Assembly: GCA_012033205.1 (NCBI GenBank)
Contig: JAAUSO010000015.1
Location: 1 to 64,000 of the forward strand
DNA from: Richelia sp. SL_2_1
GTDB lineage: Bacteria > Cyanobacteriota > Cyanobacteriia > Cyanobacteriales > Nostocaceae
Length of the DNA: 64,000 nucleotides
Direction: 5' to 3'
The translations under genes were made by a program, and so were the position numbers. Below the pieces are notes generated by a model that saw only the letters and a program-made list of their open reading frames with translations, was not told where the DNA came from and did not search any database. Shown one piece after another: positions 48,898-64,000 of the stretch. The number at the start of each line of letters is the position of its first letter. Positions within the stretch are counted from its first letter, which is position 1.

Positions 48898-48982
48898 ATT
48901 TAACTTGCCGGCGTTGGTTAAATCGACAAATTAATTAACACAAATATCGATTGAAAATTAAACTTAAAACATAGGAGAATTG

Positions 48983-50503
48983 ATGAGTCTTACATTTGAA
49001 GATTTAGGAATTTCAGAGCAACGTCTTGCACAATTAGAAAAACTTGGTTTTACAACACCGACTAATATTCAAGAACAGGCAATTCCTCAACTTTTATCAG
49101 GTCGTGATGTAGTAGGTCAATCCCAGACCGGAACTGGTAAAACCGCAGCATTTTCTCTGCCAATTTTAGAGCGGATAGATGCTAATGAAAAAGCAGTACA
49201 AGCGATAGTTTTAGCTCCAACTCGTGAACTTGCAATGCAGGTTCATAGTGCGATTGCAGAATTTGTTGGTACTCAAAAATTGAAAATTGTGGCAATTTAT
49301 GGTGGTCAGTCAATCGACCGCCAAATGATGCAATTAAAGCGTGGTGTTCATGTTGTTGTGGGTACACCAGGACGAGTAATTGATTTATTGGATAGAGGTT
49401 GTTTGAAGCTCGACCATGTAAAGTGGTTTGTATTGGATGAAGCCGATGAAATGCTGAGCATGGGCTTTATTGATGATGTAGAGAAAATCCTTTCTAAAGC
49501 ACCAAAAGAGCGCCAAACAGCTTTATTCTCGGCGACAATGCCGCCCTCAATTCGCCAGTTGGTGAATAAGTTTTTAAATGACCCCGTAACAGTAACGGTT
49601 CAACAACCAAAAGCAGCTCCGAATAAAATTAATCAGGTAGCTTACTTAATACCGCGTCACTGGACGAAAGCAAGAGCTTTGCAGCCTATTTTGGAGATGG
49701 AAGATCCGGAAACTGCGTTGATTTTCGTGCGTACTCGACGTACCGCAGCAGAATTAACCAATCAGTTACAGTCAGCTGGTCACAGTGTTGATGAATATCA
49801 CGGTGATTTGTCTCAACAAGCGCGGGAAAGATTGTTAGGACGTTTCCGCAATCGTCAAGTTCGTTGGGTAGTTGCAACTGATATTGCTGCAAGGGGTTTA
49901 GATGTTGATGAACTTTCTCACGTAATCAACTTTGATTTACCTGATAGTGTAGAAACTTATGTTCACCGTATTGGTCGTACTGGTAGGGCAGGTAAAGAAG
50001 GAACCGCTATTTCATTAGTACAACCTTTTGAGCGACGCAAACAGCAAACTATTGAACGGCACAACCGCCAGAATTGGCAAATGCTTCCTATTCCTACCCG
50101 CGCTCAAATTGAAGCACGACAGTTGGAAAAACTGCAACTTCAGGTTAAAGAAGCTTTGAGTGGTGAACGTTTGGCTTCGTTTTTACCGATAGTGCGGGAA
50201 TTAAGCGAAGAATATGATGCTCACGCCATTGCAGCAGCAGCTTTACAAATCGCTTATGACCAAACCCGTCCGGATTGGTTAAAAGCAGAAAGTATTCCCG
50301 AAGAAGAAGAGAACTATTCTTCTTCAGGTAAACCCAGATTGCGTTCTTCTTCACCACGTCGTTCTTCGGGGGATAAAAGCCGCCGTTGGTCGCAATCGGA
50401 AGGCAACAATAGAGATGGAAATGGCAAGCGTGGTGGTGGAACTCCCAAACCCAAACTTAAAACAAACCATCGAGAAATTTCTTCGGTACATCAGAATCAA
50501 TAG
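48983..50503 (+). CDS. DEAD-box RNA helicase, CrhR/DeaD-like
   Basis: ATP-dependent RNA helicase. The 506-residue product has the Q motif (GFTTPTNIQEQAIPQ), motif I SQTGTGKT, PTRELA, TPGR, motif II DEAD, SAT, and in the second lobe ARGLD and HRIGRTGRAGK. The C-terminal tail from about 455 is basic and low in complexity (RSSSPRRSSGDKSRRW) and probably contacts RNA. Length and tail resemble the cold- and redox-responsive CrhR of Synechocystis. AGGAGAATTG precedes the ATG at 48983. Confidence 0.93.
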   Translation: MSLTFEDLGISEQRLAQLEKLGFTTPTNIQEQAIPQLLSGRDVVGQSQTGTGKTAAFSLPILERIDANEKAVQAIVLAPTRELAMQVHSAIAEFVGTQKLKIVAIYGGQSIDRQMMQLKRGVHVVVGTPGRVIDLLDRGCLKLDHVKWFVLDEADEMLSMGFIDDVEKILSKAPKERQTALFSATMPPSIRQLVNKFLNDPVTVTVQQPKAAPNKINQVAYLIPRHWTKARALQPILEMEDPETALIFVRTRRTAAELTNQLQSAGHSVDEYHGDLSQQARERLLGRFRNRQVRWVVATDIAARGLDVDELSHVINFDLPDSVETYVHRIGRTGRAGKEGTAISLVQPFERRKQQTIERHNRQNWQMLPIPTRAQIEARQLEKLQLQVKEALSGERLASFLPIVRELSEEYDAHAIAAAALQIAYDQTRPDWLKAESIPEEEENYSSSGKPRLRSSSPRRSSGDKSRRWSQSEGNNRDGNGKRGGGTPKPKLKTNHREISSVHQNQ

Positions 50504-50816
50504 AATCAATTCGGTTCTATCACCGCAAAAGAATCGGCATTTTCTTAAGTACTAAATTGGTTTTGTTTTAGAAATAATCTCTACTAGTTAGTAAATTTCA
50601 AATTTAATTTAGAACAACTTTACTGGTAGAGAAATCAAATTTCCATCAATCAGCAAGTAACTGGTTCCAATGCAAGTTTCATGCTTCCGAATACGGAAGA
50701 AGAAAGTTTAAAAGATAGCAATGGAGCCAGTAATTATTTGATTTTAGATTAGATTAGTCAGTGGACAGTTGACAGTTGACAGTTGTTTTAAAGCTTTAAC
50801 CTTTAACCTTTAACCT
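50504..50816. other. Intergenic region with TTAACCT and CAGTTGA repeats
   Basis: AT-rich sequence; at its right end a short CAGTTGA array (about 50760-50782) and TTTAACC units (50792-50820) that run up to the stop of the aldo/keto reductase gene. Confidence 0.6.
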
Positions 50817-51767
50817 TTAATTCAGCCAAGGACGACTAATTTCATCTAACTGAGTAATTTCATCATCGTTTAATTTCCAGTCTAAAGCACCAGCATTTTG
50901 TTTGACTTGTTCTGCTGTTTTGACTCCAGAGATGGGAATTACATTACCTTGAGCAATTAACCAGTTGAGAGCTACTTGGGCGGGAGTACGATTGTATTTT
51001 TCGCCAATAGTTCGTAATAATGATATGACTGGCTCTATTTTTTGTAAATTGTCTTTATTAAATCGCGGGTCTATTTTTCTGGCACCAGTCGGATTTATAT
51101 TACTATCGGTGGCATATTTACCTGTAAGTAATCCTTGAGCTAAAGGACTATATGCCAAAATTGTTACACCTAATTGTTTTGCTGTGGTGATAATTCCTTG
51201 GGTTTCAACTTGACGAGTTAATAAAGAATAACGCACCTGATTAACTGCTAAAGATATGCCACGACGAGCTAAAATTTGGTGTGCTTCTTGCATTTGACTT
51301 TGGGAGTAATTACTCACACCAATTGCTTTAATTCTACCTTTTTCCACCTCAGTTGCTAAAGCATTCATTAATGTTTCTTGGCTCATAAAAAAAGCAAAAG
51401 GCCAATGTACTTGATACAATGCAACTTGTTCTAATTGGAGACGTTTGAGACTTTCGGTTAAGGCATCGCTGACAGATTGAGCCGTAAATCGCCAAGGTAA
51501 AGGACCGAACTTAGTAGCAATTTCCACTTGTTTATCGGTTTTTTTAATAAACTTTGCCAGCAATTCTTCTGAAAGTCCTAACCCGTAGACTTCCGCAGTA
51601 TCAAAAAACGTAATACCCGCTTCAATTGCAGCGTTAAAAGCTTGTTCTACTTGTTCTGAACCGTAATCATTGCCGTAATTCCAAAATAGTTTATCACCCC
51701 AAGCCCAAGTACCCAGACACAAAGGAGTAACTGATACCGCATTTTGTCCTAATGTGATGCTTTCCAC
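50817..51767 (-). CDS. Aldo/keto reductase
   Basis: NADPH-dependent oxidoreductase of the AKR superfamily, (beta/alpha)8 barrel of 316 residues. The catalytic set is present: D56 and Y61 in FFDTAEVYGLGLSEELL, K87 in IATKFG and H120 in QVHWPF. The coenzyme-binding end ISGVKTAEQVKQNAGALDWKL is also clear. Substrate unknown. Single gene, ATG at 51767; its 3' end adjoins heptamer repeats. Confidence 0.9.
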   Translation of the reverse strand: MESITLGQNAVSVTPLCLGTWAWGDKLFWNYGNDYGSEQVEQAFNAAIEAGITFFDTAEVYGLGLSEELLAKFIKKTDKQVEIATKFGPLPWRFTAQSVSDALTESLKRLQLEQVALYQVHWPFAFFMSQETLMNALATEVEKGRIKAIGVSNYSQSQMQEAHQILARRGISLAVNQVRYSLLTRQVETQGIITTAKQLGVTILAYSPLAQGLLTGKYATDSNINPTGARKIDPRFNKDNLQKIEPVISLLRTIGEKYNRTPAQVALNWLIAQGNVIPISGVKTAEQVKQNAGALDWKLNDDEITQLDEISRPWLN

Positions 51768-51966
51768 TGTTACTTAAATATTTTGATAATTTTGATAATA
51801 CTTTATATTTAAGTGTAGCGCTGTTAATGATATTGAAAGCTTTCTTGATCAATAGTTAGTGAGATAATAGCAGAGTAGCTACCGATTAAATTAGATAATT
51901 GTGTCAGTCTAATTGTAGTGACTTCCACTAATCATTGATATTTTTACATTTAAATAGTAAATAGTT

Positions 51967-53451
51967 ATGACAAGTAGCAATTCTCTACCCAATCCAGAAT
52001 CCAATAACTCCGAACAAATCAAATCTCTTCCTCAAATCAATATTTTAACCATGTTCCGTTTGGGTTTATTTCAAATGGGACTGGGGATTATGTCCCTGTT
52101 GACATTAGGAGTACTCAATCGAGTTATGATTGACGAACTTAAGGTTTTACCCTTGGTTGCAGCAGGTGCGATCGCCATGTACCAGTTTGTCAGTCCAGTA
52201 CGAATTTGGTTTGGTCAAATGTCCGATACGAAACCGATTAAGGGTTATTATCGTTCTGGGTATGTATGGATTGGTGCAGTTTTTTTTACTACTCTTTCTT
52301 TTGTGGCGCTACAAGTTGTGTGGCAATTGGGCTATAGCTTACAAGCAAATGGGTGGAATTTTCAAACTTCTGGTTGGGCTGCAATACTAGCATTAATTTT
52401 TGCACTTTACGGGTTAGCTCTGAGTGCAAGTTCTACACCTTTTACGGCATTATTAGTAGATGTAACTGACGAAGACAACCGTTCTCAATTGGTTGGGGTT
52501 GTGTGGTCAATGTTGATGGTTGGGATTGTGATTGGAGCGATTGTCAGTTCTAGATTGCTAGAAACACCAGAAATTTGTGGCTCTGCTATTTTATCTTATG
52601 ACCCTTCTCAAAGTGGAAAAATAGCAAATATTTCGCAATTAAAAGCTACAATTAATCCTGTATTTATAATTATGCCAGCGTTAGTTTTCGGACTATGTAT
52701 TTTGGCAACATTTGGAATAGAAAAAAAATATTCTCGTTACTCTTTAAGTTCGCAAGCTGTAGAAAGAGAAGACCAAATAAGTTTAAAAAAAGCCTTAAAA
52801 GTTCTAACTGCTAGTCGTCAAACTGGATTATTTTTCAGTTTTTTGCTGGTATTAACTATCAGTTTGTTTATGCAAGATTCAATTTTAGAACCTTATGGTG
52901 GAGAAGTGTTTGGAATGTGTATTGCTGAAACCACCAGATTAAACATTCCTTTTGGAATTGGTACTTTAATTGGAATTGCTTCAACTGGTTTTTTATTAGT
53001 ACCGCGTTTGGGAAAGAAAAACACTACTAAATTTGGATGTATCAGTGCGGCACTCTGCAATGGTTTAATTATTATGGCTGGATTTAGTGGTAGTAAAACT
53101 TTGTTAATGGGTAGTTTGTTGTTCTTTGGTTTAGCATCTGGAATGCTGACAGCAGGGGCTACTAGTTTGATGTTAGATTTAACAGCAGCGGAAACTGCGG
53201 GAACGTTTATTGGTGCTTGGGGATTATCTCAAGCAATGGCAAGAGGTTCGGCAACGGTACTTGGTGGAGGATTTTTAAATTTAGGGAAAACGCTGTTTGA
53301 ATTACCAGTAATGGCTTATGGATTAGTGTTTTTTCTACAAGGAATAGGAATGATTTTTGCGATTTTATTATTGGGTAGAATTAACGTTAAAGAATTTCAA
53401 AAAAATGCTAAATTGGCGATTAGTTCGATATTAGAAAATGAATTAGATTAA
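51967..53451 (+). CDS. BCD-family MFS transporter (PucC/LhaA-like)
   Basis: A 494-residue polytopic membrane protein of the bacteriochlorophyll-delivery family, which is implicated in pigment handling and light-harvesting assembly. The N-terminal block MFRLGLFQMGLGIMSLLTLG, RVMIDELKVLPLVAAGAIA and the loop WFGQMSDTKPIKGYYRSGYV are typical. Twelve membrane segments. The cytosolic N-terminus is Ser/Asn-rich. ATG at 51967. Confidence 0.88.
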   Translation: MTSSNSLPNPESNNSEQIKSLPQINILTMFRLGLFQMGLGIMSLLTLGVLNRVMIDELKVLPLVAAGAIAMYQFVSPVRIWFGQMSDTKPIKGYYRSGYVWIGAVFFTTLSFVALQVVWQLGYSLQANGWNFQTSGWAAILALIFALYGLALSASSTPFTALLVDVTDEDNRSQLVGVVWSMLMVGIVIGAIVSSRLLETPEICGSAILSYDPSQSGKIANISQLKATINPVFIIMPALVFGLCILATFGIEKKYSRYSLSSQAVEREDQISLKKALKVLTASRQTGLFFSFLLVLTISLFMQDSILEPYGGEVFGMCIAETTRLNIPFGIGTLIGIASTGFLLVPRLGKKNTTKFGCISAALCNGLIIMAGFSGSKTLLMGSLLFFGLASGMLTAGATSLMLDLTAAETAGTFIGAWGLSQAMARGSATVLGGGFLNLGKTLFELPVMAYGLVFFLQGIGMIFAILLLGRINVKEFQKNAKLAISSILENELD

Positions 53452-53454
53452 GTT

Positions 53455-53631
53455 AGTTGACAGTTGACAGTTGACAGTGGACAGTTGACAGTTGACAGTT
53501 GACAGTGGACAGTGGACAGTTGACAGTTGACAGTTGACAGTTCATTGAATTATTGGTAGTGGTTGCGTTTCCTTTAACCTTTAACCTTTAACCTTTAACC
53601 TTTAACCTTTAACCTTTAACCTTTAACCTTC
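53455..53631. repeat. Heptamer repeats (CAGTTGA/CAGTGGA, then TTTAACC units)
   Basis: About twelve CAGTTGA/CAGTGGA units (53457-53544) and eight TTTAACC units (about 53571-53628) occupy the whole gap between the BCD transporter and the inositol monophosphatase-like gene. Confidence 0.92.
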
Positions 53632-54425
53632 ATGAACGATTTTTGGAATAATATTTTAGAGTTTTCTCAAAGTATTACTACTAGAATTGGCAAGCAGTTA
53701 ATGCAAGATTTTGGTAGGGTACAAGCTGATAGTAAAGCTGATGGTAGTTTGGTGACGAAAGCGGACAAATGGGCTGATAATCAAATTAGAGATGCGATTA
53801 CCACCCAATTTCCCGATCATGGTATTCTCAGTGAAGAAAATAATACGGTTTTTCCCGATAATCAATGGTGTTGGATAGTTGACCCTTTAGACGGTACTAC
53901 TAACTTTACAAGGGGAATTCCTATTTGGTGTATTTCTTTGGGGTTGCTCTACAAAGGTATCCCTGTATTTGGTTATGTTTATGCACCACCAACTGATGAA
54001 GCTTTTTATGGATATTGGCAAGGTGATTCTGGATTAAGTTTACCTTCAGGAGCATTTTACAATCATCATCAAATCAAAACCAGTGACGATAATATAAGTA
54101 AAAATCATTTTTTCAATGTATGTTCTCGCAGCACTTCGGTAATTAATCCCGATTTTCCCTGTAAAATCAGAATGCTTGGTGTTGCTAGCTATAATTTCCT
54201 TACCATGCTACAGGAGCGGTATTAGGTGCCATTGAAGCCACACCCAAAGTATGGGATATAGCTGGTGCTTGGGTAATTTTACAAGGTGCTGGAGGTTGTT
54301 GGATATCTTTGAAATCCCAGCCTTTTCCTTTGGTAGTAGGTGAAGATTATAGTGCAAAATGTTTACCTACATTAGCTGTAAGTAAACCAGAGTTAATTGA
54401 GATTTTTAAAGCTTTGGTGGATTAA
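53632..54425 (+). pseudogene. Inositol monophosphatase family protein, frameshifted
   Basis: The gene encodes a Mg2+-dependent sugar/inositol phosphatase: GSLVTKADKWAD, the metal ligands ILSEENN and the signature WIVDPLDGTTNFTRGIP are all present. At about 54206 the frame breaks after NFLT; in the next frame it continues GAVLGAIEATPKVWDIAGAW, containing the second metal-binding signature, to a stop at 54423-54425. Adding one T in ACCATGCT (ACCATTGCT) restores an NFLTIATGAVLG joint and a protein of about 264 residues. Either a recent inactivation or a base-calling error. Confidence 0.87.
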
Positions 54426-54427
54426 TT

Positions 54428-54594
54428 AGGGAATAGGGAATAGGGAATAGGGAATAGAAAATATTGCTATGTAATTAGGGCTTGCTGAATAAGTTATTAT
54501 TCCCACATTTGTACTAAAACTAAAAATCCTTTTCCTCTTTGTTACCAATTACCAATTACCAATTACCAATTACCGATTCCCTATTCCCTATTAC
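54428..54594. repeat. Heptamer repeats (GGGAATA and ACCAATT units)
   Basis: Four GGGAATA units at 54428-54460, and ACCAATT units followed by CCCTATT units at 54541-54594, inverted relative to the first array, so the two arrays could pair. They end in the stop region of the ABC ATPase gene. Confidence 0.82.
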
Positions 54595-55358
54595 AAATAA
54601 TTATCGGTAATTTCACCATCTTCCAAGAATGCCACATTGTCGGCAAAACTCTGAATTCGAGAATCATGAGTTACCATAACAACGGTACTTCCACCTTCTT
54701 TAGCTAAATTACATAGTAACTCGATAACAGCTTGTCCGTTATGAGAATCTAGTGCGGCAGTTGGCTCATCTGCCATAATTAATTGAGGATTTCCTGCTAA
54801 AGCACGGGCGATGGCAATTCGCTGTTTTTGTCCACCAGATAAGTCACGAGGCAGTAGATTGGCTTTATTAGCTAATCCTACCATATCTAATAATTCTAAA
54901 GCCTGGTGAGTAGCAGATTTTCCCTTAATACCTTTGATTTCTAAAGCGACTTGCACATTTTCTACTGCATTTAAAGCACCGAACAAGTTAAAGCCTTGAA
55001 AAATAAAACCAATATGATCCCTTCTAAATCGAGATAATTTTTTCCGAGACATCCGGGTAATTTCCTCTCCTAAAAGATGCACCTTCCCATTGGTAGGAGT
55101 CAAAATTCCTGCCAAAATTGATAATAAAGTGGTTTTTCCCGAACCGGAATGTCCCATTAACAGTTGAATGGTACCCTTGCTCACATCCAAATCAATTCCT
55201 TTGAGTGCTACGTAGCGCTGTCTCCCAGATTGATATACCATTTCTATTCCTTTAGCAGAAATAGCAGAGGTTTTCAATTTACTTACATCAGTAGATTGTG
55301 AATTATTCCAACTGTCGATTCTGTTCGTCACTATACATTGATTTTGAGAAATAGTCAT
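54591..55358 (-). CDS. ABC transporter ATP-binding protein, DevA/LolD/MacB-type
   Basis: A 255-residue ATPase with Walker A GHSGSGKTT, Q-loop FQGFNLFGALN, signature LSGGQKQR and Walker B LIMADEPTAALD. The pattern is that of the DevA/LolD group, which drives tripartite exporters. The N-terminus has about 35 extra polar residues before the domain. It lies 120 bases downstream of the permease gene on the same strand. The usual membrane-fusion (DevB-like) gene is not adjacent. Confidence 0.9.
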   Translation of the reverse strand: MTISQNQCIVTNRIDSWNNSQSTDVSKLKTSAISAKGIEMVYQSGRQRYVALKGIDLDVSKGTIQLLMGHSGSGKTTLLSILAGILTPTNGKVHLLGEEITRMSRKKLSRFRRDHIGFIFQGFNLFGALNAVENVQVALEIKGIKGKSATHQALELLDMVGLANKANLLPRDLSGGQKQRIAIARALAGNPQLIMADEPTAALDSHNGQAVIELLCNLAKEGGSTVVMVTHDSRIQSFADNVAFLEDGEITDNYL

Positions 55359-55481
55359 TTCTTTTAGGGAAGGATATTAATTTTTAGGCTTTGTACAAGA
55401 AATAGATAAAATTACTTATAAGTTTTTAAGATAAGAACAAAAATTAACTCTTAAGATAGAACAATTTACTTAGGAAAAATA

Positions 55482-56732
55482 CTATGCTTTGAATACAATT
55501 GCCGGATCAACTTTGCTGACTTTCTGAATTGCGAATAAAGCCGAACCCACGCACATCAACACCGTTACGCCAAAAACTCCCACGGCTGTTAATGGAGTAA
55601 TCAAAATTACGATGCCTTGAGTTGCTAGCGTCCAAGCTCCTAACCCCCAACAAAGCAACATTCCGGGAATATAGCCAAGAATCGCCATCCACAAAGCCTG
55701 CTCGATGATAATGCCGTATATGACTCTATTGGACGCTCCCATAGCTTTGAGTGTTCCAAATTCTTTGAGATGATCGGCAACTGCTGAGTATAAGATTTGA
55801 CCGACAATTACGACACCAACAACTATACCTACACCGGCACCTAAGCCTAAAATAAACCCGATCCCCGTTGACTGCTGCCAAAATAGACGTATCTTTTGAG
55901 ACAATTCTGCGGTGGTATATGCTTTAGTTTCAGGGAAGGTAGCTTCTAAACGTTTTTTGAGTTGTGGGATATTTTCGCCGGGTTGTGCTTGAATTAACAC
56001 GTAAGAAATCGGACTATTTAAGCTTAATGTTGGTGGTGGTTCGTTGGTAGATTGTTGTTTTTGAGCATTAGTATCTTTTTGGTAAACGTTTCGACATTGC
56101 AGTTCTTCTCCCACCCAGGTACAGTTAACATTCGTGGTGACGCTAGCATTAACGTAAGCGTTTGCAGTTTCCAAGGAAGTAAATAGTACTGCACTGGAAA
56201 CAACTGATTGGGTATTTTGGGTGAATCCGACTACCTGTACTGGTAAAGAACCAACTTGAGCGGTATCTCCAATTTGTTTGACTTTGAGAGATTTCAAGTT
56301 GCTTTGATCAAGGATTACTGTATAAGGGTTTCTCAGAGATTTTACATTACCTTCAACCATCTCTCCGGGTACAAATAATTGTCCTGTGGCAGGAAATCCA
56401 AATATTTTGACTACATTGAGTTTGCCATTGGGTACATTCCATCGAGCAGAACCTTGGAGTAAAGCTTCGGCTCGTCTGACACCATCAACTTTTCTCGCTC
56501 TCACGGCATAATCGAATAGAAGCGGTTGAGTTAGTTCGAGGTGTACCATTTTATCGGATGCTAACCAGATATCGGCTCGAGAATTTTCTACTAAAGTTGC
56601 CGTAGAACGAATTACCCCATTGAAAACTCCAGTTTGGATAGTCACTAAGCTAACAGCAAACATGATTCCGGCTTGAGCAACTAAAAACCGAGGAATATCT
56701 TCAAATAAGTTTTTGCGAGCAATAGAAACCAT
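55482..56732 (-). CDS. FtsX/DevC-like ABC exporter permease
   Basis: A 416-residue permease with the four-helix MacB/FtsX topology: the first membrane helix IPRFLVAQAGIMFAVSLVT, a large periplasmic domain (about 45-270) and three C-terminal helices (FILGLGAGVGIVVGVVIVGQ, FGTLKAMGASNRVIYGIIIEQ). A Cys pair in the insert (NVNCTWVGEELQCRN) could form a disulfide and is unusual. Start at the ATG 56732 (MVSIARKNLFEDI). With the downstream ATPase it forms an export system; substrate unknown. Confidence 0.87.
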   Translation of the reverse strand: MVSIARKNLFEDIPRFLVAQAGIMFAVSLVTIQTGVFNGVIRSTATLVENSRADIWLASDKMVHLELTQPLLFDYAVRARKVDGVRRAEALLQGSARWNVPNGKLNVVKIFGFPATGQLFVPGEMVEGNVKSLRNPYTVILDQSNLKSLKVKQIGDTAQVGSLPVQVVGFTQNTQSVVSSAVLFTSLETANAYVNASVTTNVNCTWVGEELQCRNVYQKDTNAQKQQSTNEPPPTLSLNSPISYVLIQAQPGENIPQLKKRLEATFPETKAYTTAELSQKIRLFWQQSTGIGFILGLGAGVGIVVGVVIVGQILYSAVADHLKEFGTLKAMGASNRVIYGIIIEQALWMAILGYIPGMLLCWGLGAWTLATQGIVILITPLTAVGVFGVTVLMCVGSALFAIQKVSKVDPAIVFKA

Positions 56733-57557
56733 GAACAGAATTACCAAGAGAATTTATTTGATTTGCAACTTATACCCTAAATTAGATTTTAGATTTTAAA
56801 AAAGCTTTTAAGATTCCATCTGTCCCCATCATTTTTGATGTTTGGTATTATTTTTTCCCGTTAATTGATGCAATTTTAGTAATACTTAAGTAATTAGGCA
56901 TAAATAATTCATAAATAATTATCGTTATGTAACATACAAGGTAAACTTGGCTCAAAACTTTACCTCTAGTCCCTACTCCCTACTCATAACAACAATTTTG
57001 AACGCCTATCTACTTAGGGGTGGGAATTGATTTAAAATGCAGATTTTTTTAATTTTAGATTTCATCTTATATTTCATGAAAATTTCTCCTAAAAAATGGT
57101 TTTAATCGGTGTTAAAGTAAATATCTCTAAATAAATTCATCAATAGAACAGGAACATTTTCATCAAAAAATGCCTATTATAAATGAATTCAAGCAGTTTA
57201 GAATATGCAACTTTTTGATAATTTTCAAGTCTACCGGATAAAATATTTTATCTCACAGACTTGATGTCAATTTGAAATCCCTGCATCCAAAATTTATTGA
57301 CTGTAGGTTAAATTGCAAAAGTTCCGGAGATTAATACACCATGCAGGAAAATCGATCAAATATTCGTACATATGTACGCTTTTCTTGGAACTACTTAAAA
57401 CATCATAAGTTCTTTTATTGTAGGTTAGCTCTCTCGACAGACCGGGATATGAGTAGTAATATCTTCCTCACTTTAGAACTTTAGTTAGTTTTAAATACTT
57501 TTGTAAAGACGCTTCAAGGATTGTTTATATTTACTTAATAATTTGTGTGGAGGTGAA
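56733..57557. other. Long intergenic region, divergent
   Basis: About 820 AT-rich bases between the ABC permease and the GH3 gene, without a credible ORF or stable RNA. It should hold promoters for both directions. Confidence 0.55.
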
Positions 57558-59231
57558 ATGGTAAATTTTACATTAGCGTTACTTACTAATGCGGCAAGAT
57601 TATCTAAAGCAAATTTTGTCCGTAAAACCCGTAACCCGACAGTAATTCAAGAGGAATTTTTGCTGTCGCTGCTTAATGCTTATCAAGAAACCGAATTTGG
57701 ACAAGAGTATCGGTTTGCAGAAATTAAAAGTGTCGATCAATTTCGAGAACGTCTACCAATTCTACCTTACAGCAGTTATGAACCTTATTTAGAGCGTATT
57801 GCTAAGGGAGAGCCAAATATTCTCACACCCAACCCCGTTATTTACCTGAATTTAACGAGCGGTTCTACTGGTAAACAAAAATTGATTCCAGTTACCGAAC
57901 AATCCCGTAAAATTTTGAATCGTAATAATCAGGTTAGCATTGGTTTTGCTGCTGAAGCCGCGCAAAAACGAGGTTTATCAATTGGTACAATCCTTTTAAC
58001 AAGTTCGGTACAATTATACGGACGTACCAGCGGTGGAATTGATTATGGCCCGGTTAGCGTTGGTGATTTACGTCTGAATAGTTTTCTGTATCAGCAAGTA
58101 TTTGCGCTTCCTTATGAAGCATTGCAGCCACAAGATAATTTAGCACGTCATTACGTTTGTTTGCTTTTTGCTTTAAAGAATCCGTCTTTGAGAATTATCG
58201 CTGCCAATTTCCCGATTTTAGGGCTACAACTGTGTCAGTATTTGGAATCTCAAGCTTTAGAACTAATTGAAGATTTAGAACAAGGAACTATTGCTCCCTG
58301 GTTGAATTTGAAACCAGAATTACGAGCAAAATTAGAAAATAAATTATCTCCATCCCCGAAACGAGCTGCTCAATTACGTCAGATTTTACAAGATGAAGGA
58401 AGACTTACACCAAAATCGGTTTGGCCAAGTCTCTCATTCATTACTACTGCTCGTGGTGGCACATCCGATTTTTATCTGCAAAAATTTCCCGAATATTTTG
58501 GTGACACCCCGATTTTTGGCGGAGTTTATTCTTCTGCGGAAGGTACTTTTGGTATTTATCCCGACTTTAATAATGATGGGGCAATTTTAGCGATTCAAAC
58601 TGGTTTCTTTGAATTTATCCCCGAAGAGGAATGGGATATTTCCCAACCAAAAACACTTTTAGCTCATCAAGTAGAAGTCGGAAAATATTATCGTATTTTG
58701 TTGTCTAACTACAGCGGTTTGTATCGTTACGATATTGGAGATGTGGTAGAAGTTGTCGGCTGGTACCAAAAAACTCCTTTAATTACATTCCGACATCGTA
58801 AGGGAGGTGTGTTATCTTCAACAACAGAAAAAACCTCGGAATTTCACGTTATTCAGGTAATGCAGCAATTAGAAAAGAAATTTAATTTATCTTTAGAAAA
58901 CTTTTGTATTACTTTATCTGAAGATGGAATTTTTCCTCATTATTTAGTAAACATTGAATTAGCATCGGGTCATAATCTTAATAATCCTCAACAATTTATC
59001 ATTGAGTTCGACCGTTTGTTACAAGAAATTCAGATTTCTTATGCAGCTAAAAGACCAAATCCAATACCATCACCCAGGCTAAGAATTATGGCTGCGGGAA
59101 GTTTTGCGACTATTCGACAGCGGCTTTTAAACACAGGAATTCCGGCTTCGCAATTAAAATTTCCTCATCTAAGCGACGATAGACAATTTCTCGCTGGATT
59201 AACTGTTGAGAAAGAAATAACTCTAGTATAA
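57558..59231 (+). CDS. GH3 auxin-responsive-promoter family protein (acyl amide synthetase-like)
   Basis: This 557-residue protein belongs to the GH3 family of ANL-superfamily adenylating enzymes, which in plants join amino acids to carboxylic acid hormones. Visible are an N-terminal RLPILPYSSYEPYLERIAKGE, the ATP-binding NLTSGSTGKQKLIPVT (P-loop-like), the second motif GGVYSSAEGTFGI and YRYDIGDVVEVVG with the adenylate-contacting Asp. GGAGGTGAA precedes the ATG at 57558. The acid and amine are unknown. It opens a group of accessory genes with two oxygenases. Confidence 0.9.
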   Translation: MVNFTLALLTNAARLSKANFVRKTRNPTVIQEEFLLSLLNAYQETEFGQEYRFAEIKSVDQFRERLPILPYSSYEPYLERIAKGEPNILTPNPVIYLNLTSGSTGKQKLIPVTEQSRKILNRNNQVSIGFAAEAAQKRGLSIGTILLTSSVQLYGRTSGGIDYGPVSVGDLRLNSFLYQQVFALPYEALQPQDNLARHYVCLLFALKNPSLRIIAANFPILGLQLCQYLESQALELIEDLEQGTIAPWLNLKPELRAKLENKLSPSPKRAAQLRQILQDEGRLTPKSVWPSLSFITTARGGTSDFYLQKFPEYFGDTPIFGGVYSSAEGTFGIYPDFNNDGAILAIQTGFFEFIPEEEWDISQPKTLLAHQVEVGKYYRILLSNYSGLYRYDIGDVVEVVGWYQKTPLITFRHRKGGVLSSTTEKTSEFHVIQVMQQLEKKFNLSLENFCITLSEDGIFPHYLVNIELASGHNLNNPQQFIIEFDRLLQEIQISYAAKRPNPIPSPRLRIMAAGSFATIRQRLLNTGIPASQLKFPHLSDDRQFLAGLTVEKEITLV

Positions 59232-59470
59232 CTTAAAATGAATAACAATTTAATGCCATATTTATGAGGAAAATATTGTAAATTAAAATAGTATTGGTAG
59301 GCGATAAAAAAATGTGATTTACTTTGCCAATTACTTATAGATAACAATCGATTAATGATTATTTAATAAATAGTTAATTTTTCGATTGTTAATTAAGGAA
59401 AATAAAATTAACTTAAACTCAATTAAATTAATTTTATTTAACCTTACTTGTTAATTTAAATAATAGAAAA

Positions 59471-60445
59471 ATGAGGACACCATCACAAGAGAAGCATCTA
59501 TCAGCAACTGAGAGCAAAAAGCAAATTGCAAGGGTTGATGGAAATACTTTAACTCCAGAGATTTTTGCGACAAAATATCAAAAACATGGTATACCAGTTG
59601 TAATTACTGGTTTACTAGATTCCGACGAACTTAATTGGGATTTAGACTATTTACGCAAAAAATTGGGACAAAAAAAGTTTCCGGTTAGATTTTACGGGCG
59701 TGAAAGATATCAGCAAGACAAGCGAAACTGGGAAAATATGGGAAGTGGAGTAGAATCACGCACTATACCTTTTAGCGACTATGCTGAAAAACTGTTAAGT
59801 GGAGAAGCTGATGAAAAAGATATTTATTTAGGTAAATGCTCCCTCACAAATACTCCCCTTGCAGATAACCCCAGTTTTCAGCGTTTAGAATCGCAACTTG
59901 GTTTGAGCATACCCGTAACTCCTTTAAATCTCTGGGTTGGTTTGGGGGGACATACAACTTGTCTGCACTGCGATGCCTTTGATGGTACTCTAATTCAACT
60001 CTATGGAGCTAAGAAACTGATTCTGTTTCCACCCAATCAACTATATAATCTATATCCTTTTTCACTATTAAATAATTTACTTTATGGGTTCAAACGACGA
60101 GCTTCTTACAGTCAGATATATCCCCAAAAACCTGATTTTCAAGCCTTTCCTAAATTTAAAAAAGCACTTTCCCAATCTTACGAAGTAGTTCTTAATCAAA
60201 GAGAGATTCTCTACATACCTGTAGGATGGTGGCATGAAGTTACTTGTTTGGGTGATGGAGTAGTGTGTTCAGTAAATCGTTTTTGGCGAGTATTGCCTAT
60301 TTACCGTTCGTTTTTTTCTTGGAATAAATGGCGTATTCATTTATCTAGTATATTAGCGATACCTCATTTTTTCGCGATTGGGTTAACAAATATTATCGGT
60401 AAAGATAGGAAAGAAAATTTAAATCGATTATTGCAAAGACTTTAA
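59471..60445 (+). CDS. Cupin-like JmjC-domain Fe(II)/2-oxoglutarate oxygenase
   Basis: A 324-residue protein of the cupin_8/JmjC type, whose members hydroxylate proteins or small molecules. The iron facial triad is H166-x-D168 in LHCDAFDG and H255 in GWWHEV; the 2-oxoglutarate-binding lysine would be in GAKKLILFPP. The N-terminal IPVVITGLLD is the usual beginning of such domains. It lies 240 bases after the GH3 gene and is followed by another 2-oxoglutarate-type oxygenase. Substrate unknown. Confidence 0.88.
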   Translation: MRTPSQEKHLSATESKKQIARVDGNTLTPEIFATKYQKHGIPVVITGLLDSDELNWDLDYLRKKLGQKKFPVRFYGRERYQQDKRNWENMGSGVESRTIPFSDYAEKLLSGEADEKDIYLGKCSLTNTPLADNPSFQRLESQLGLSIPVTPLNLWVGLGGHTTCLHCDAFDGTLIQLYGAKKLILFPPNQLYNLYPFSLLNNLLYGFKRRASYSQIYPQKPDFQAFPKFKKALSQSYEVVLNQREILYIPVGWWHEVTCLGDGVVCSVNRFWRVLPIYRSFFSWNKWRIHLSSILAIPHFFAIGLTNIIGKDRKENLNRLLQRL

Positions 60446-60483
60446 TTAGTTAGGAGTTATTACCACCGGAGTCTCGTCGGATG

Positions 60484-60547
60484 AGAAGTCGGGTTTTTAC
60501 GATAATTGTGTTTTATCACAGAGATTTCTCTTAAAAACCCGACTTCT
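60484..60547. repeat. Imperfect-loop inverted repeat, 16-bp arms
   Basis: AGAAGTCGGGTTTTTA (60484-60499) and TAAAAACCCGACTTCT (60532-60547) are perfect complements around a 32-base spacer that has a second small stem (GTGTTTTATCAC). Such AAGTCGGGTTTTT palindromes are frequent small repeats in cyanobacterial genomes; here it also could terminate transcription. Confidence 0.82.
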
Positions 60548-60599
60548 GATTATATATTTCTCGTAGTTTACTTTTCCGCTAATTTTATATATTTAAAAT

Positions 60600-61361
60600 A
60601 TGCAAAACTTATCTAAGATAGCCGTCACACAACTAGAAAAATTACTTAGTAAAGATGGTTGGTTAGAAACCTTAGTCGCGAAAAACTCTAAGGTAGAAAA
60701 TTCTGTCTTTTTTGATGTCGAACAGTTCCCTTGGGCTAAAAATTTAGAAGCTAATTGGATGACGATTCGTAAGGAATTAGAACAAGTACTGGAAAGAGTA
60801 GATGAATTACCAAATTTTCAAGATATTTCTAAACGTCAAACTCGCATTGCTAACGATAATCTTTGGAAAACCTATTTTTTCTATGCCTTTGGATTTAAAG
60901 CTACTAAAAATTGCCAAAGATGTCCCGAAACTACTAAATTGATTGAACAAATTCCGGGAATGAAAGTGGCATTTTTCTCAATTCTTGCTCCTGGTAAACA
61001 TATTCCCAAACATCGTGGTAAACTCAAAACTTTGATTCGCTATCATTTGGGTTTAATTGTTCCAGAACCCAAAGAAAAATGTAAAATTCAAATAGCAGAT
61101 GAAATTAGATATTGGCAAGAAGGTAAAAGTTTAATTTTCGACGATACTTTTTACCATGAAGTTTGGAATGATACGGATGGATATCGTGTAGTATTATTTT
61201 TAGATATTCTTCGTCCCTTAAAATTTCCTCTTTCTTTGATCAGTTCTTTAGCTAATAAATTTATTGCTGCATCTCCCATAGTTCAAGAAGCAAAAGCTAG
61301 TCATAATACTTGGGAAAATAAGTTTGAAAAAGAGCAGAAATCTCAAGAACTAATTTCTTAG
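60600..61361 (+). CDS. Aspartyl/asparaginyl beta-hydroxylase family protein
   Basis: A 253-residue Fe/2-oxoglutarate oxygenase of the AspH type. Core motifs: HIPKHRGKLKTLIRYHLGL (134-152), with H138 as the probable iron ligand and R139/R147 as substrate contacts, IFDDTFYHEVWN with H186, and R196 for 2-oxoglutarate. Cysteines C105 and C108 (NCQRC) form a pair. It could act on a peptide, lipid or the product of the GH3 enzyme. It ends 100 bases before the convergent MFS gene. Confidence 0.88.
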   Translation: MQNLSKIAVTQLEKLLSKDGWLETLVAKNSKVENSVFFDVEQFPWAKNLEANWMTIRKELEQVLERVDELPNFQDISKRQTRIANDNLWKTYFFYAFGFKATKNCQRCPETTKLIEQIPGMKVAFFSILAPGKHIPKHRGKLKTLIRYHLGLIVPEPKEKCKIQIADEIRYWQEGKSLIFDDTFYHEVWNDTDGYRVVLFLDILRPLKFPLSLISSLANKFIAASPIVQEAKASHNTWENKFEKEQKSQELIS

Positions 61362-61432
61362 TTTGTAGTTGCGCTTTAGCGCTAAATTTTGTCATTATTT
61401 CGCTAAATTCTTCATAGAACCCAGAATACTGG

Positions 61433-61455
61433 GAGACGTAGCACTGCTACGTCTC
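61433..61455. terminator. Perfect palindrome, bidirectional terminator-like
   Basis: GAGACGTAGCA and TGCTACGTCTC flank a single C; T-rich sequence follows on the plus strand. It lies between two convergent genes. Its core TAGCACTGCTA is shared with the MITE palindrome at 18900. Confidence 0.7.
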
Positions 61456-61462
61456 TACATTT

Positions 61463-62662
61463 TTAAAAACGGTCGTATTTTGCTTTTTCCAGGGCTTTAC
61501 TTTGTTTGATACTCAAAAATGTAGTTACTAAAGATACCGCTGCACCTACAAAAAATACCGCGATTCCACCATTCTTCCAAACTGGACCTAGAAAAATTGG
61601 CGAAAAAAATTGTCCTAAATTACTCGCTCCCGTACCAATTGCTAAAACGCTAGAACGTACTTCTGGAGGATTTGATTTTGATAACGCATCGTATAAATTA
61701 GGCATAACGATACCGAATCCCATGCCGAAAACAATCGCTGTGGGCAGAATCAAATAAACTTGTTCCACAAACGGTATAGTTATTAATGTGACTGCCATTA
61801 AAATAAAGCCTAGAGCGATCGCCCTCGCACTCCCCAAACGCTTGGCTAACTTGCTCGCACCCACGGCAGAAATTACAGCCGCACCAATGGCTCGCGATGC
61901 TAAAATTGCTCCATTCAATACTGTATCGGCTCCAATTGCTTGTTTAAAATGTAGGGGAGCGTAGATAATTACTACATAAAATATGGCGGATGTCAAGGCT
62001 AAGGCTGTAAATAAAGTTAAAGTACTCGAAGATGTCAAGCTTTGAATAAGTTGGTCTTTTTGATTTAGACCTATTGATAAAGTACTTTGACGCTTTTGCT
62101 TTGGTAATATCAAATAGGCAATCAGGGCGGCTGGTAAACCTAAACCATAGAGAAAAAAGGTAAATCGCCAATTGATTGAACCAAGTAAACCACCTAAAAG
62201 CGGAAAAATAATGCTGGCGATAGCCAATGCACTGGTTGTATAACCAAGGATGCGGGTTCGTCTTTCTCCTTCATACATACTGCTGAGAATACCGATACTA
62301 GCAGCAGCAACCCCTCCACTGGCAGCCCCCAATAATGCTCGTGATATTAATAAAGGGGTAAAACTCTGCATCAAACCTCCAATACTGCCGAAAATTGCGT
62401 AGCAAACCAGTGATGGAATTAGCACCTTGACTTTACCAATCCGGTCAGCGAGAATACCAAAAATCGGACTAAATAAAAAGATTGTCAAACAATGCATACT
62501 CACCAATGTACCTGTCCAACGCGGATCGATGGCAAGTTGTTCTTTGATTTCCGGCATTATTGGTGACACAACACTTCCCGTCATCGTGGTTAAGCTACCG
62601 CAAACAAGTAATACCAGTAACGTCGGAATTTGCTTGCGATTTTCTTTAGCTAGAAGCGACAT
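61463..62662 (-). CDS. MFS drug/proton antiporter-type exporter
   Basis: A 399-residue, twelve-helix member of the major facilitator superfamily. The N-terminal half has the family motif A at GILADRIGKVKVLI and motif C-like GAASGGVAAASIGI, which fits drug:proton exporters of the 12-TM group. It is transcribed towards the GH3/oxygenase genes, with a shared terminator, so it could export their product. Substrate unknown. Confidence 0.85.
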   Translation of the reverse strand: MSLLAKENRKQIPTLLVLLVCGSLTTMTGSVVSPIMPEIKEQLAIDPRWTGTLVSMHCLTIFLFSPIFGILADRIGKVKVLIPSLVCYAIFGSIGGLMQSFTPLLISRALLGAASGGVAAASIGILSSMYEGERRTRILGYTTSALAIASIIFPLLGGLLGSINWRFTFFLYGLGLPAALIAYLILPKQKRQSTLSIGLNQKDQLIQSLTSSSTLTLFTALALTSAIFYVVIIYAPLHFKQAIGADTVLNGAILASRAIGAAVISAVGASKLAKRLGSARAIALGFILMAVTLITIPFVEQVYLILPTAIVFGMGFGIVMPNLYDALSKSNPPEVRSSVLAIGTGASNLGQFFSPIFLGPVWKNGGIAVFFVGAAVSLVTTFLSIKQSKALEKAKYDRF

Positions 62663-62849
62663 AGATTATATAAAAATTCCTGAATAAATTTATCAGCCTT
62701 AAAAGTACACTAACCCAACTCATTCACGGTGAATAGGCAATTAGGAGAACAAAATCCCCTGCAAAGAAATAATGCAAGGGAAATGGTACCTTAGTATTTG
62801 AATTGTTTAAAGCTGTAACTGTTCCGCTGATAAATCTCTTGGTGAATCT

Positions 62850-64000
62850 CTAAGCAATCAAAGATTGATTGATCTCAACTTGCTGGGGTTTTTGGGAAAG
62901 ATTCAACTTGCGGTAATCAGCGATTTGTCCCTCAATTTCATTTTTGACAATTTGACGGTATTCAATATGATGTTCTAAAAGAGCGCACATAGATATATAA
63001 GATACTAATACTTTCGGATTATGTTTAAGTATTAAGAAAAGTTGAATCCAGAATTGAAAGCGTGTATTACGTTTAATTCCTTGTCGCCAGACTATAATCA
63101 ATAGCGCTCTTAATTCGATTAATTTCAGCATCTGGAACTTTTTCTGATAAGTTCGAGGTTCCATTTCCAAATAATGGCGATAAACTCGTCCCAGGAATTT
63201 CTTTGGTTCGTATAATTCCCAGAAACAGTTTACATATTCGGAAGCTAATTCTTCTATAGGACGAGTTGGAATAAAATTAGTTAAAGAAGTTGTTTGATTT
63301 CCCGTGTTACCTTTTTGATCAATCTCTAATAAACGTCCTTCTTTTTCCAATCGATGCCATAATGCTGTATTTGGCAAAGCTTGTAGCAAACCAAACATTG
63401 CATTGGGAATTGCAGTCGTCTCCACAAAATCAATAATACGATCGCCAGCTCCAGCTTTTTCACCATCGAAACCGAGAATAAAGCCAGCCATGACTCGTAA
63501 ACCTTTACGATTAATTGTTTGAACCGCTTCTGCTAGTGAATTGCGGGTATTTTGATGCTTTTTAGTTAGTGATAAACTATCCGTATCAGGAGTTTCAATT
63601 CCCAAAAATACGGAGGTAAAGTTAGCCGCAATCATTAAATCGAGCAGTTCCTCATCTTGTGCTAAATCTACTGAAGCTTCTGTTTGCAAGCTGAATGGAT
63701 AACCGCGCTCTACCATCCAGGGAATCAGTTCTTTGAGTAAAAGCTTGACATTACGTTTATTGCCGATGAAATTATCATCCACCATAAACACGGAATTTCG
63801 CCAGCCTAAATCATAGAGTGTTTGTAATTCCTCAAGCAGTTGGGCTGGATTCTTAGTACGCGGTTTGCGTCCATAAAGCACAATGATATCGCAAAACTCA
63901 CACTCAAACGGACAACCGCGAGAAAACTGCACCGACATCATGTCATAAGCGCTCATCTCAAGTAAATCGTATCGGGGTATCGGCGTACCAGTAATATCGG
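62850..64000 (-). CDS. B12-binding-type radical SAM protein, 5' partial
   Basis: The reading frame extends beyond the right edge: before the internal Met at 63956 it continues with DITGTPIPRYDLLEMSAYDM, so the true start is outside. The radical SAM cluster motif is CPFECEFC, followed by the family block RKPRTKNPAQLLEELQ and a DUF4070-like C-terminal half (SEYVNCFWELYEPKKFLGRV). Such proteins usually have an N-terminal cobalamin-binding domain, which is not visible. Possible roles include methyl transfer; it resembles the hopanoid C2 methylase group but I would not assign that. Confidence 0.85.
   Translation of the reverse strand, partial: DITGTPIPRYDLLEMSAYDMMSVQFSRGCPFECEFCDIIVLYGRKPRTKNPAQLLEELQTLYDLGWRNSVFMVDDNFIGNKRNVKLLLKELIPWMVERGYPFSLQTEASVDLAQDEELLDLMIAANFTSVFLGIETPDTDSLSLTKKHQNTRNSLAEAVQTINRKGLRVMAGFILGFDGEKAGAGDRIIDFVETTAIPNAMFGLLQALPNTALWHRLEKEGRLLEIDQKGNTGNQTTSLTNFIPTRPIEELASEYVNCFWELYEPKKFLGRVYRHYLEMEPRTYQKKFQMLKLIELRALLIIVWRQGIKRNTRFQFWIQLFLILKHNPKVLVSYISMCALLEHHIEYRQIVKNEIEGQIADYRKLNLSQKPQQVEINQSLIA

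Follow-up and report, generated by a model that had tools for sequence, protein, structure and literature searches.

Why should a cyanobacterium keep a GH3-family acyl-acid amide synthetase beside two different 2-oxoglutarate oxygenases and a transporter? The question is raised by a stretch of 64,000 nucleotides from Richelia sp. SL_2_1 (contig JAAUSO010000015.1 of assembly GCA_012033205.1, positions 1 to 64,000; hereafter the window), in which the four genes lie together. An earlier reading of the DNA letters and their translations (the original prediction) had described this arrangement and suggested that the set could make, hydroxylate and export an acyl-amino-acid product. The arrangement itself is borne out: the GH3 gene is complete, the two oxygenase genes (JmjC/cupin-8 and AspH-type) and the convergent MFS gene lie where they were placed, and catalytic residues are kept.

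57558..59231, + strand: GH3-family acyl-acid amide synthetase, 557 aa (Pfam domains, 19-sequence alignment, PDB profile search)
59471..60445, + strand: JmjC/Cupin_8 2-oxoglutarate oxygenase, FIH-like, 324 aa (Pfam Cupin_8 9.9e-38, JmjC_2 5.1e-7)
60600..61361, + strand: AspH-family oxygenase, 253 aa (Pfam Asp_Arg_Hydrox 6.9e-56)
61463..62662, - strand: MFS transporter, 399 aa, convergent to the AspH gene (Pfam MFS_1 5.4e-47)

Gene content, conserved catalytic residues, a conserved neighbourhood and matching phylogenetic profiles, from which we infer substrates, step order, co-transcription and export, suggest that a minority of cyanobacteria have a ceramide-type (sphingolipid) system of which this locus forms one arm, with GH3 as an accessory amide-former. 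We hold this reading, which is drawn from sequence, with moderate confidence.

Clustering the open reading frames around GH3 loci revealed further partners of GH3. They comprise a divergent group (FA_hydroxylase of family PF04116, an Mpo1-like protein and an amidohydrolase) and, besides these, genes for a Rieske oxygenase, for an enzyme of the alpha-oxoamine synthase (AOS) class, for a GNAT and for an SDR. AOS is the enzyme class that contains serine palmitoyltransferase (SPT). In Richelia sp. SL_2_1 some of these partners lie just past the window end, on the window's own contig (C255), and on a separate contig (C336):

C255:65201-66361: Rieske oxygenase
C255:66459-67757: AOS
C336:2054-4131: GNAT and SDR, in a run with FA_hydroxylase
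C336:4305-4778: FA_hydroxylase, the genome's own copy

We profiled these genes in two samples, 60 related genomes and 292 genomes spread over the phylum, with 7 GH3-positive genomes common to both. Among the 60 related genomes, a GH3 orthologue (at least 51% identity) was present in 21, the next matches reaching at most 33% over long stretches and 38% over short ones. The same 21 genomes carried AOS (E of at most 1e-100, at least 70% identity), GNAT (E of at most 1e-30), SDR (E of at most 1e-60) and FA_hydroxylase (at least 70%, with four other genomes at 49-64%). The Rieske oxygenase (at least 55%) was found in 19 of the 21, being absent from G044 and G047, and in none of the 39 others, where matches did not exceed 38%; AspH (at least 65%) and JmjC (at least 48%) were found in 12 and 11 of the 21, one JmjC copy being split by a stop, and again in none of the 39. 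Weaker AspH homologues do occur outside the GH3 genomes, at 51-56% in three and lower elsewhere. The E limits were 1e-100 (AOS, and GH3 in the phylum sample), 1e-60 (SDR) and 1e-50 (Rieske), weaker homologues being left aside, and the phylum search scored no more than 4 (GH3) or 6 (AOS) first-look candidates in each genome. Across the phylum sample, GH3 was present in 16 genomes and AOS in 22, the same 22 that carry GNAT at 55% or more (7 further genomes have a GNAT of at most 33%), and all 16 GH3 genomes lie inside this set of 22.

The naive chance of the exact match in the 60 genomes is 1e-16, or 4e-13 by genus, with kinship ignored; the 21 GH3 genomes span 14 genera, and 8 of them are of the window's own genus and hence not independent. 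Linkage alone does not explain the agreement, because the genes are far apart in several genomes (G051, G044 and G047). Since GH3 is found only in genomes carrying the likely ceramide gene set, it probably helps to build a ceramide-type lipid. The profiles also divide the functional proposal of the original prediction in two: making, hydroxylating and exporting an acyl amide remains plausible, whereas an acyl-amino acid as an end product in its own right is less likely than a lipid of the ceramide type, since every genome with this GH3 in the two samples (21 of 21 and 16 of 16) also has AOS and a GNAT resembling bacterial ceramide synthase (bCerS).

For the gene neighbourhood, we took the best 80 of 138 confirmed GH3 matches, which make up 79 loci, and added the window, giving 80 loci (58 clusters at 80% GH3 identity) with weaker relatives outside. 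By record title, these best 80 of 138 matches are all from cyanobacteria but for one metagenome-assembled genome labelled Tatlockia. The GH3 locus of that Tatlockia sp. genome (L106, JACCVJ010000530.1) has cyanobacterial synteny, and the bin is probably mislabelled or contaminated. In 26 loci (18 clusters) AspH is at most 3 kb from GH3, on the same strand in 24 of them, the count being 27 or 26 depending on the anchor copy in loci with two GH3 genes, of which we use 26. JmjC is as close in 20 loci (15 clusters; same strand in 11 of 20) and MFS in 29 loci (26 clusters; 6 of 30 copies on the same strand). All three are found within 5 kb of GH3 in 8 loci: the window and seven others, from Plectonema, Phormidium, Calothrix, Mastigocoleus (2), Halothece and Rivularia. 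These neighbour counts are all lowered, because in 35 of the 80 loci the sequence available is shorter than 5 kb on one side or both. As a rough background, genes that probably play no part here (inositol phosphatase, PucC, aldo-keto reductase and DEAD helicase) occur anywhere in 6 to 11 stretches.

Conservation of the gene set, on which the original prediction depended, was also found in related genomes: a close AspH (at least 65%) lies within 3.5 kb of GH3 in 10 of 12 relatives and a close JmjC (at least 48%) in 9 of 11, the G014 copy being split by a stop. Coordinates were compared by hand for this linkage, and the window's own genus supplies 8 of these 12 relatives and 6 of these 11. The opposite pattern, in which the genes are not neighbours in related genomes, was looked at and does not overturn the grouping. 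The view that the GH3, JmjC, AspH and MFS genes belong together is supported. JmjC is not a fixed member, since the close relative G002 has AspH directly after GH3 and no JmjC match genome-wide. Near-exclusion of AspH and FA_hydroxylase beside GH3 (27 and 27 of 80 loci, 1 shared) had suggested that one displaces the other; we rejected this because all 12 close-AspH genomes of the 60-genome sample also carry FA_hydroxylase. AOS lies in the fetched stretch of 20 of the 80 GH3 loci. Among 20 AOS loci fetched, GNAT is in the stretch of 13 and MFS in that of 8, and 7 of these 8 have no GH3 in the stretch, so that MFS seems to be part of the pathway and not of GH3 alone. In Calothrix (L077:14305-15672), two Mastigocoleus and one Rivularia genome (L094, L100, L118), AspH and MFS are separated by a PGA_cap-family gene.

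The GH3 open reading frame spans 57543-59231 (+); in the alignment, the first Met of each of 18 homologues falls on the ATG at 57558. Its N-terminal, central and C-terminal Pfam GH3 domains all score above their cut-offs (1.4e-84, 1.6e-25 and 6.5e-19), and the three nucleotide motifs, as defined in passages of PMC12493201, are conserved (I, TSGSTGKQK; II, YSSAEG; III, GLYRYDIGD). Invariant in 19 GH3 sequences (the window and 18 of 22 fetched orthologue loci, with L040, L042, L052 and L053 left out) are S101-G102-S103-T104-G105, K108, E328, G387, R390-Y391-D392, G394-D395 and K534. In a PDB profile search all 10 of 10 matches were GH3s of plants, JAR1 and enzymes that conjugate auxin being examples, and among the best 80 of 138 matches the closest named relative is that of Plectonema cf. 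radiosum LEGE 06105, at 97%. Two more GH3 genes of other subfamilies are present in the window's own genome (C334:96992-98530 and C262:17625 onward), which match the window GH3 at 32%, and at 26% over about 110 residues; related GH3s are also present in genomes without AOS at E 1e-100, for instance G032. The original prediction had called GH3 enzymes rare in bacteria, which does not agree with the more than 7500 bacterial hits given in a part of the paper on the GH3 enzyme OlsH (PMC12493201); the window-type orthologue itself is present in 16 of 292 cyanobacterial genomes.

Both oxygenases appear intact at their active sites. AspH, aligned with human AspH, retains H138, R147, H186 and R196, and JmjC, aligned with its best solved relative FIH (5e-20), retains H166, D168, K181 and H255, each set invariant in 8 sequences; we take these to be the metal- and 2-oxoglutarate-binding residues. 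The nearest named family of AspH is OlsC, at 263 bits against an NCBIfam cut-off of 450, and LpxO scores 131 bits against 500, so that AspH is like these acyl-chain 2-hydroxylases in domain, catalytic residues and length but falls below both curated cut-offs. As it is nearest to OlsC, a fatty acyl chain hydroxylase, and shares its strand with GH3 in most loci where the two are close, AspH could act on the AOS-derived lipid that GH3 is proposed to modify. The AspH match beside GH3 in the distant genome G051 (L054:13734-14324) contains one in-frame stop codon.

Several observations point to a ceramide-type pathway. The GNAT of Richelia sp. SL_2_1 aligns over its full length (26-30%, 5e-44 or better) with N-acyltransferases of three plasmid SPT clusters, from Sphingomonas parapaucimobilis, Pseudomonas veronii and Rahnella aquatilis, whose AOS pass an NCBIfam SPT cut-off (833 against 670, 615 against 500 and 613 against 500, respectively); by this alignment it appears to be a member of the bCerS family of N-acyltransferases. 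As annotated, the Rahnella cluster contains AOS, an acyl carrier protein (ACP), an epimerase/dehydratase, a fatty acyl-AMP ligase and an N-acetyltransferase, and the Sphingomonas cluster AOS, ACP, LptF, LptG and an N-acetyltransferase. They resemble the Caulobacter set of aasR, cerR, acpR, spt, LptF2/G2 and cerS given in passages of PMC11324152, to which we liken our genes by gene-set description only. The order AOS-GNAT-SDR recurs on Rubrobacter and Streptomyces plasmids; in Richelia the SDR sits directly after GNAT and is 32% identical to the Streptomyces operon SDR over 232 aa and 23-25% identical to those of Rahnella and P. veronii. The best-scoring AOS relative in PDB is an SPT (145 bits; next 116), and a solved-structure search with GNAT returned a chance match only. 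FA_hydroxylase and the Mpo1-like gene, the latter found in 20 of the 80 GH3 loci, belong to families that fit sphingolipid metabolism, and the Mpo1 family has a 2-hydroxy-palmitic-acid dioxygenase. E. coli YghO is also homologous to the bCerS-like GNAT family (29.7%, 1e-41, 99% of query), and in Pseudomonas veronii a gene named yghO is found in the cluster with a curated SPT, yghS and yghR.

Several observations weigh against a ceramide-type reading. AOS fails all SPT models (183, 165 and 116 bits against 640, 500 and 670), for which the positive controls L174, L162, L180 and L182 each pass at least one, and its top NCBIfam score, for BioF, also fails (236 against a cut-off of 426). Its best non-cyanobacterial BLAST match among 12 controls is BioF at 183 bits, with a Bacteroides SPT at 163, and in a tree of 25 rows, with its deep joins marked as unsafe, it forms a separate, very long branch that is not placed with SPT. 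This tree held 13 cyanobacterial rows of about 40 available and 12 controls, 9 of them from 45 listed rows (208 records matched) and 3 from plasmid loci, with L177 unused. We therefore set aside the identification of AOS as an SPT by sequence, which neither the NCBIfam models nor the tree support. The best models for the SDR, HpnA and SdmB, score below cut-off, and its likeness to the cluster SDRs is superfamily-level only (23-34%, mostly partial). Eight plasmid GNAT contexts, a non-random choice from 44 records, divide into 5 with AOS, 2 of LptF/LptG type without AOS and 1 with neither. At the GH3 loci themselves, 15 of 80 have no nearby AspH, JmjC, MFS, FA_hydroxylase or AOS. GH3 is furthermore absent from 6 of the 22 AOS/GNAT genomes of the phylum sample (G161, G087, G098, G179, G227 and G329), from which GH3 appears to depend on the pathway and not the reverse, and with a bCerS-like GNAT already present GH3 is not needed for ceramide. 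Because AOS is not assignable to SPT by model or tree and the SDR is not recognisably CerR, "ceramide-type" denotes an inferred pathway and not a family assignment. The notion that GH3 is the missing, and only, N-acyltransferase was rejected, as GNAT is present in every AOS genome of both samples and GH3 is not.

Might GH3 instead make an N-acyl amino acid lipid, as OlsH does, with AspH hydroxylating it like OlsC, MFS exporting it, and the ceramide genes being a separate system in the same hosts? In the account of PMC12493201 as far as it is cited here, a GH3 enzyme first activates an acid as its adenylate and then transfers it to an amine, OlsH of Singulisphaera acidiphila forms N-acyl-ornithine from free fatty acid, ornithine and ATP for a membrane lipid, and two cyanobacterial GH3s appear in the tree. 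Window GH3 and OlsH are both bacterial GH3 family members with the three nucleotide motifs, and the essential motif I serine of OlsH, S115 in that account, corresponds to S101, invariant in our 19 sequences. The nearness of AspH to OlsC also favours such a route, as does the frequent lack of AOS in the fetched stretch of GH3-AspH loci. However, window GH3 scores only 97 bits on the NCBIfam OlsH model, whose equivalog cut-off is 620, so that it is not assigned to OlsH by this model. Unlike OlsH, it is tied to AOS and bCerS-like genes, without which it was never found in either sample, and no OlsI- or OlsG-like neighbour (alpha/beta-hydrolase or N-methyltransferase) is found among the 11 window proteins that we scanned with Pfam (48980-63956). 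On balance we consider this explanation unlikely, if still a serious one.

We regard as similarly doubtful the idea that AOS, GNAT and SDR make some other acyl-amino-ketone or amino-alcohol natural product, of 1-deoxy type or from another amino acid, which GH3 and the oxygenases then tailor for export. Such a specialised metabolite would agree with an AOS that neither NCBIfam nor the tree assigns to SPT, with several oxygenase families around the locus and a linked MFS gene, and with the patchy occurrence of the set in 22 of 292 genomes; it sits less well with the full-length homology of GNAT to genes in three curated-SPT clusters, or with FA_hydroxylase and the Mpo1-like gene, whose families fit sphingolipid metabolism.

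Far less probable is a role for GH3 in place of the fatty acyl-AMP ligase of proteobacterial SPT clusters, in which it would activate a fatty acid for AOS or GNAT and form no amide. An annotated fatty acyl-AMP ligase is indeed carried by the Rahnella and Roseomonas clusters, that of Rahnella passing its model, and GH3 too forms an acyl-adenylate, but the same passages of PMC12493201 have known GH3s transferring the acyl group to an amine, 6 of 22 AOS/GNAT genomes lack GH3, and a BLAST comparison of the window GH3 with these two ligases, at E 1e-3, gave no match. That GH3 links an amino acid to some small acid or a compound resembling a hormone, like the plant GH3s that made up all 10 solved relatives found, is very improbable given a GH3 profile tied to lipid genes and an AspH neighbour nearest to a lipid hydroxylase.

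The window holds further features around the four genes:

60484..60547: 15-nt perfect inverted repeat (hairpin) in the JmjC-AspH spacer (RNA fold -33.9 kcal/mol, z -3.7)
61432..61456, + strand: terminator-like stem where the AspH and MFS genes converge (weak evidence)
62850..63956, - strand: B12-binding radical SAM/DUF4070 gene, truncated where the window ends, the full gene encoding 531 aa and reaching C255:64445
55482..56747, - strand: DevC-like FtsX/MacB permease, divergent from GH3
54591..55358, - strand: DevA-like ABC ATPase

GH3 and JmjC are separated by 239 bp, and JmjC and AspH by 154 bp. The 15-mer of the latter spacer has just two copies window-wide (at most 1 mismatch), both of them arms of the inverted repeat, and terminator-like stems number 8 in the region against 4.1 expected from shuffles, about twofold. 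GH3, JmjC and AspH may possibly be read as a single transcript, past the strong spacer hairpin. Of the 80 loci, 14 have DevC and 16 have DevA at most 3 kb from GH3; a DevB gene was not seen beside the DevA/DevC-like pair (54591-56747, -). The radical SAM/DUF4070 gene has a looser association, with 19 of 80 loci, 8 of them within 3 kb.

Under the ceramide-type reading, AOS would condense an amino acid with a fatty acyl thioester, the bCerS-family GNAT would N-acylate the product, and the SDR would reduce the ketone. GH3 would use ATP to adenylate a fatty acid in free form (or an oxidised lipid acid) and join it to a lipid amine, most simply the long-chain base, or a head-group amine, of the AOS-derived lipid; its most likely role would be a second, free-fatty-acid route to the ceramide amide, or a head-group amide. 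AspH could then hydroxylate the acyl chain in the manner of OlsC and LpxO, JmjC, the Rieske oxygenase and FA_hydroxylase could add further oxidations, and MFS (and DevAC) could move the product. Put more specifically, and only tentatively, the product may be a hydroxylated ceramide-type cyanobacterial lipid for which GH3 serves as a second ATP-dependent ceramide synthase (or a salvage or head-group amide synthetase) using free fatty acids.

Among the closest known systems is the bacterial Spt-bCerS-CerR pathway of Caulobacter and other Proteobacteria, as outlined in passages of PMC11324152 and PMC11087976. Here too there are an AOS, a full-length bCerS-family GNAT and an SDR, often adjacent; in the cyanobacterial set, by contrast, AOS and SDR are not recognisable as Spt and CerR, and GH3, Rieske, AspH, JmjC and MFS are added. 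Parts of a 2022 study (PMC8895605) report two cyanobacterial ceramides, from Scytonema julianum and Moorea producens, and state that the genetic basis of cyanobacterial ceramides was as yet unreported, with no sphingolipid enzyme characterised there. According to the same parts, Nostoc punctiforme makes no common unbranched sphingolipids, and its only AOS found, Npun_R3567, clusters with cyanobacterial BioF and yielded no 3-ketosphinganine in E. coli; we liken this AOS, from a strain without detected sphingolipids, to ours by description only. The acyl chain of Mooreaside A is C25 and unhydroxylated in the portion of PMC6272925 used here, and Mooreaside A thus offers no support for the hydroxylase steps. 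In the open-access literature searched, we found neither a link between GH3 and sphingolipids nor a description of this gene set, nor did cyanobacterial ceramide or sphingolipid, searched as phrases, bring up a paper.

Sphingolipid genes have hardly been described in cyanobacteria so far. If the tentative reading of GH3 as a second ceramide synthase (or a salvage or head-group amide synthetase) is true, no GH3 before this one would have had a place in sphingolipid metabolism, and the genes would be the first such set for sphingolipids in cyanobacteria. The analysis names that set (AOS, bCerS-like GNAT, SDR, FA_hydroxylase, GH3 and the tailoring oxygenases) and predicts which cyanobacteria should make such lipids, carriers such as Calothrix parasitica NIES-267 and Plectonema cf. 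radiosum LEGE 06105 among them. More generally, it points to a possible role for bacterial GH3 enzymes beyond ornithine lipids.

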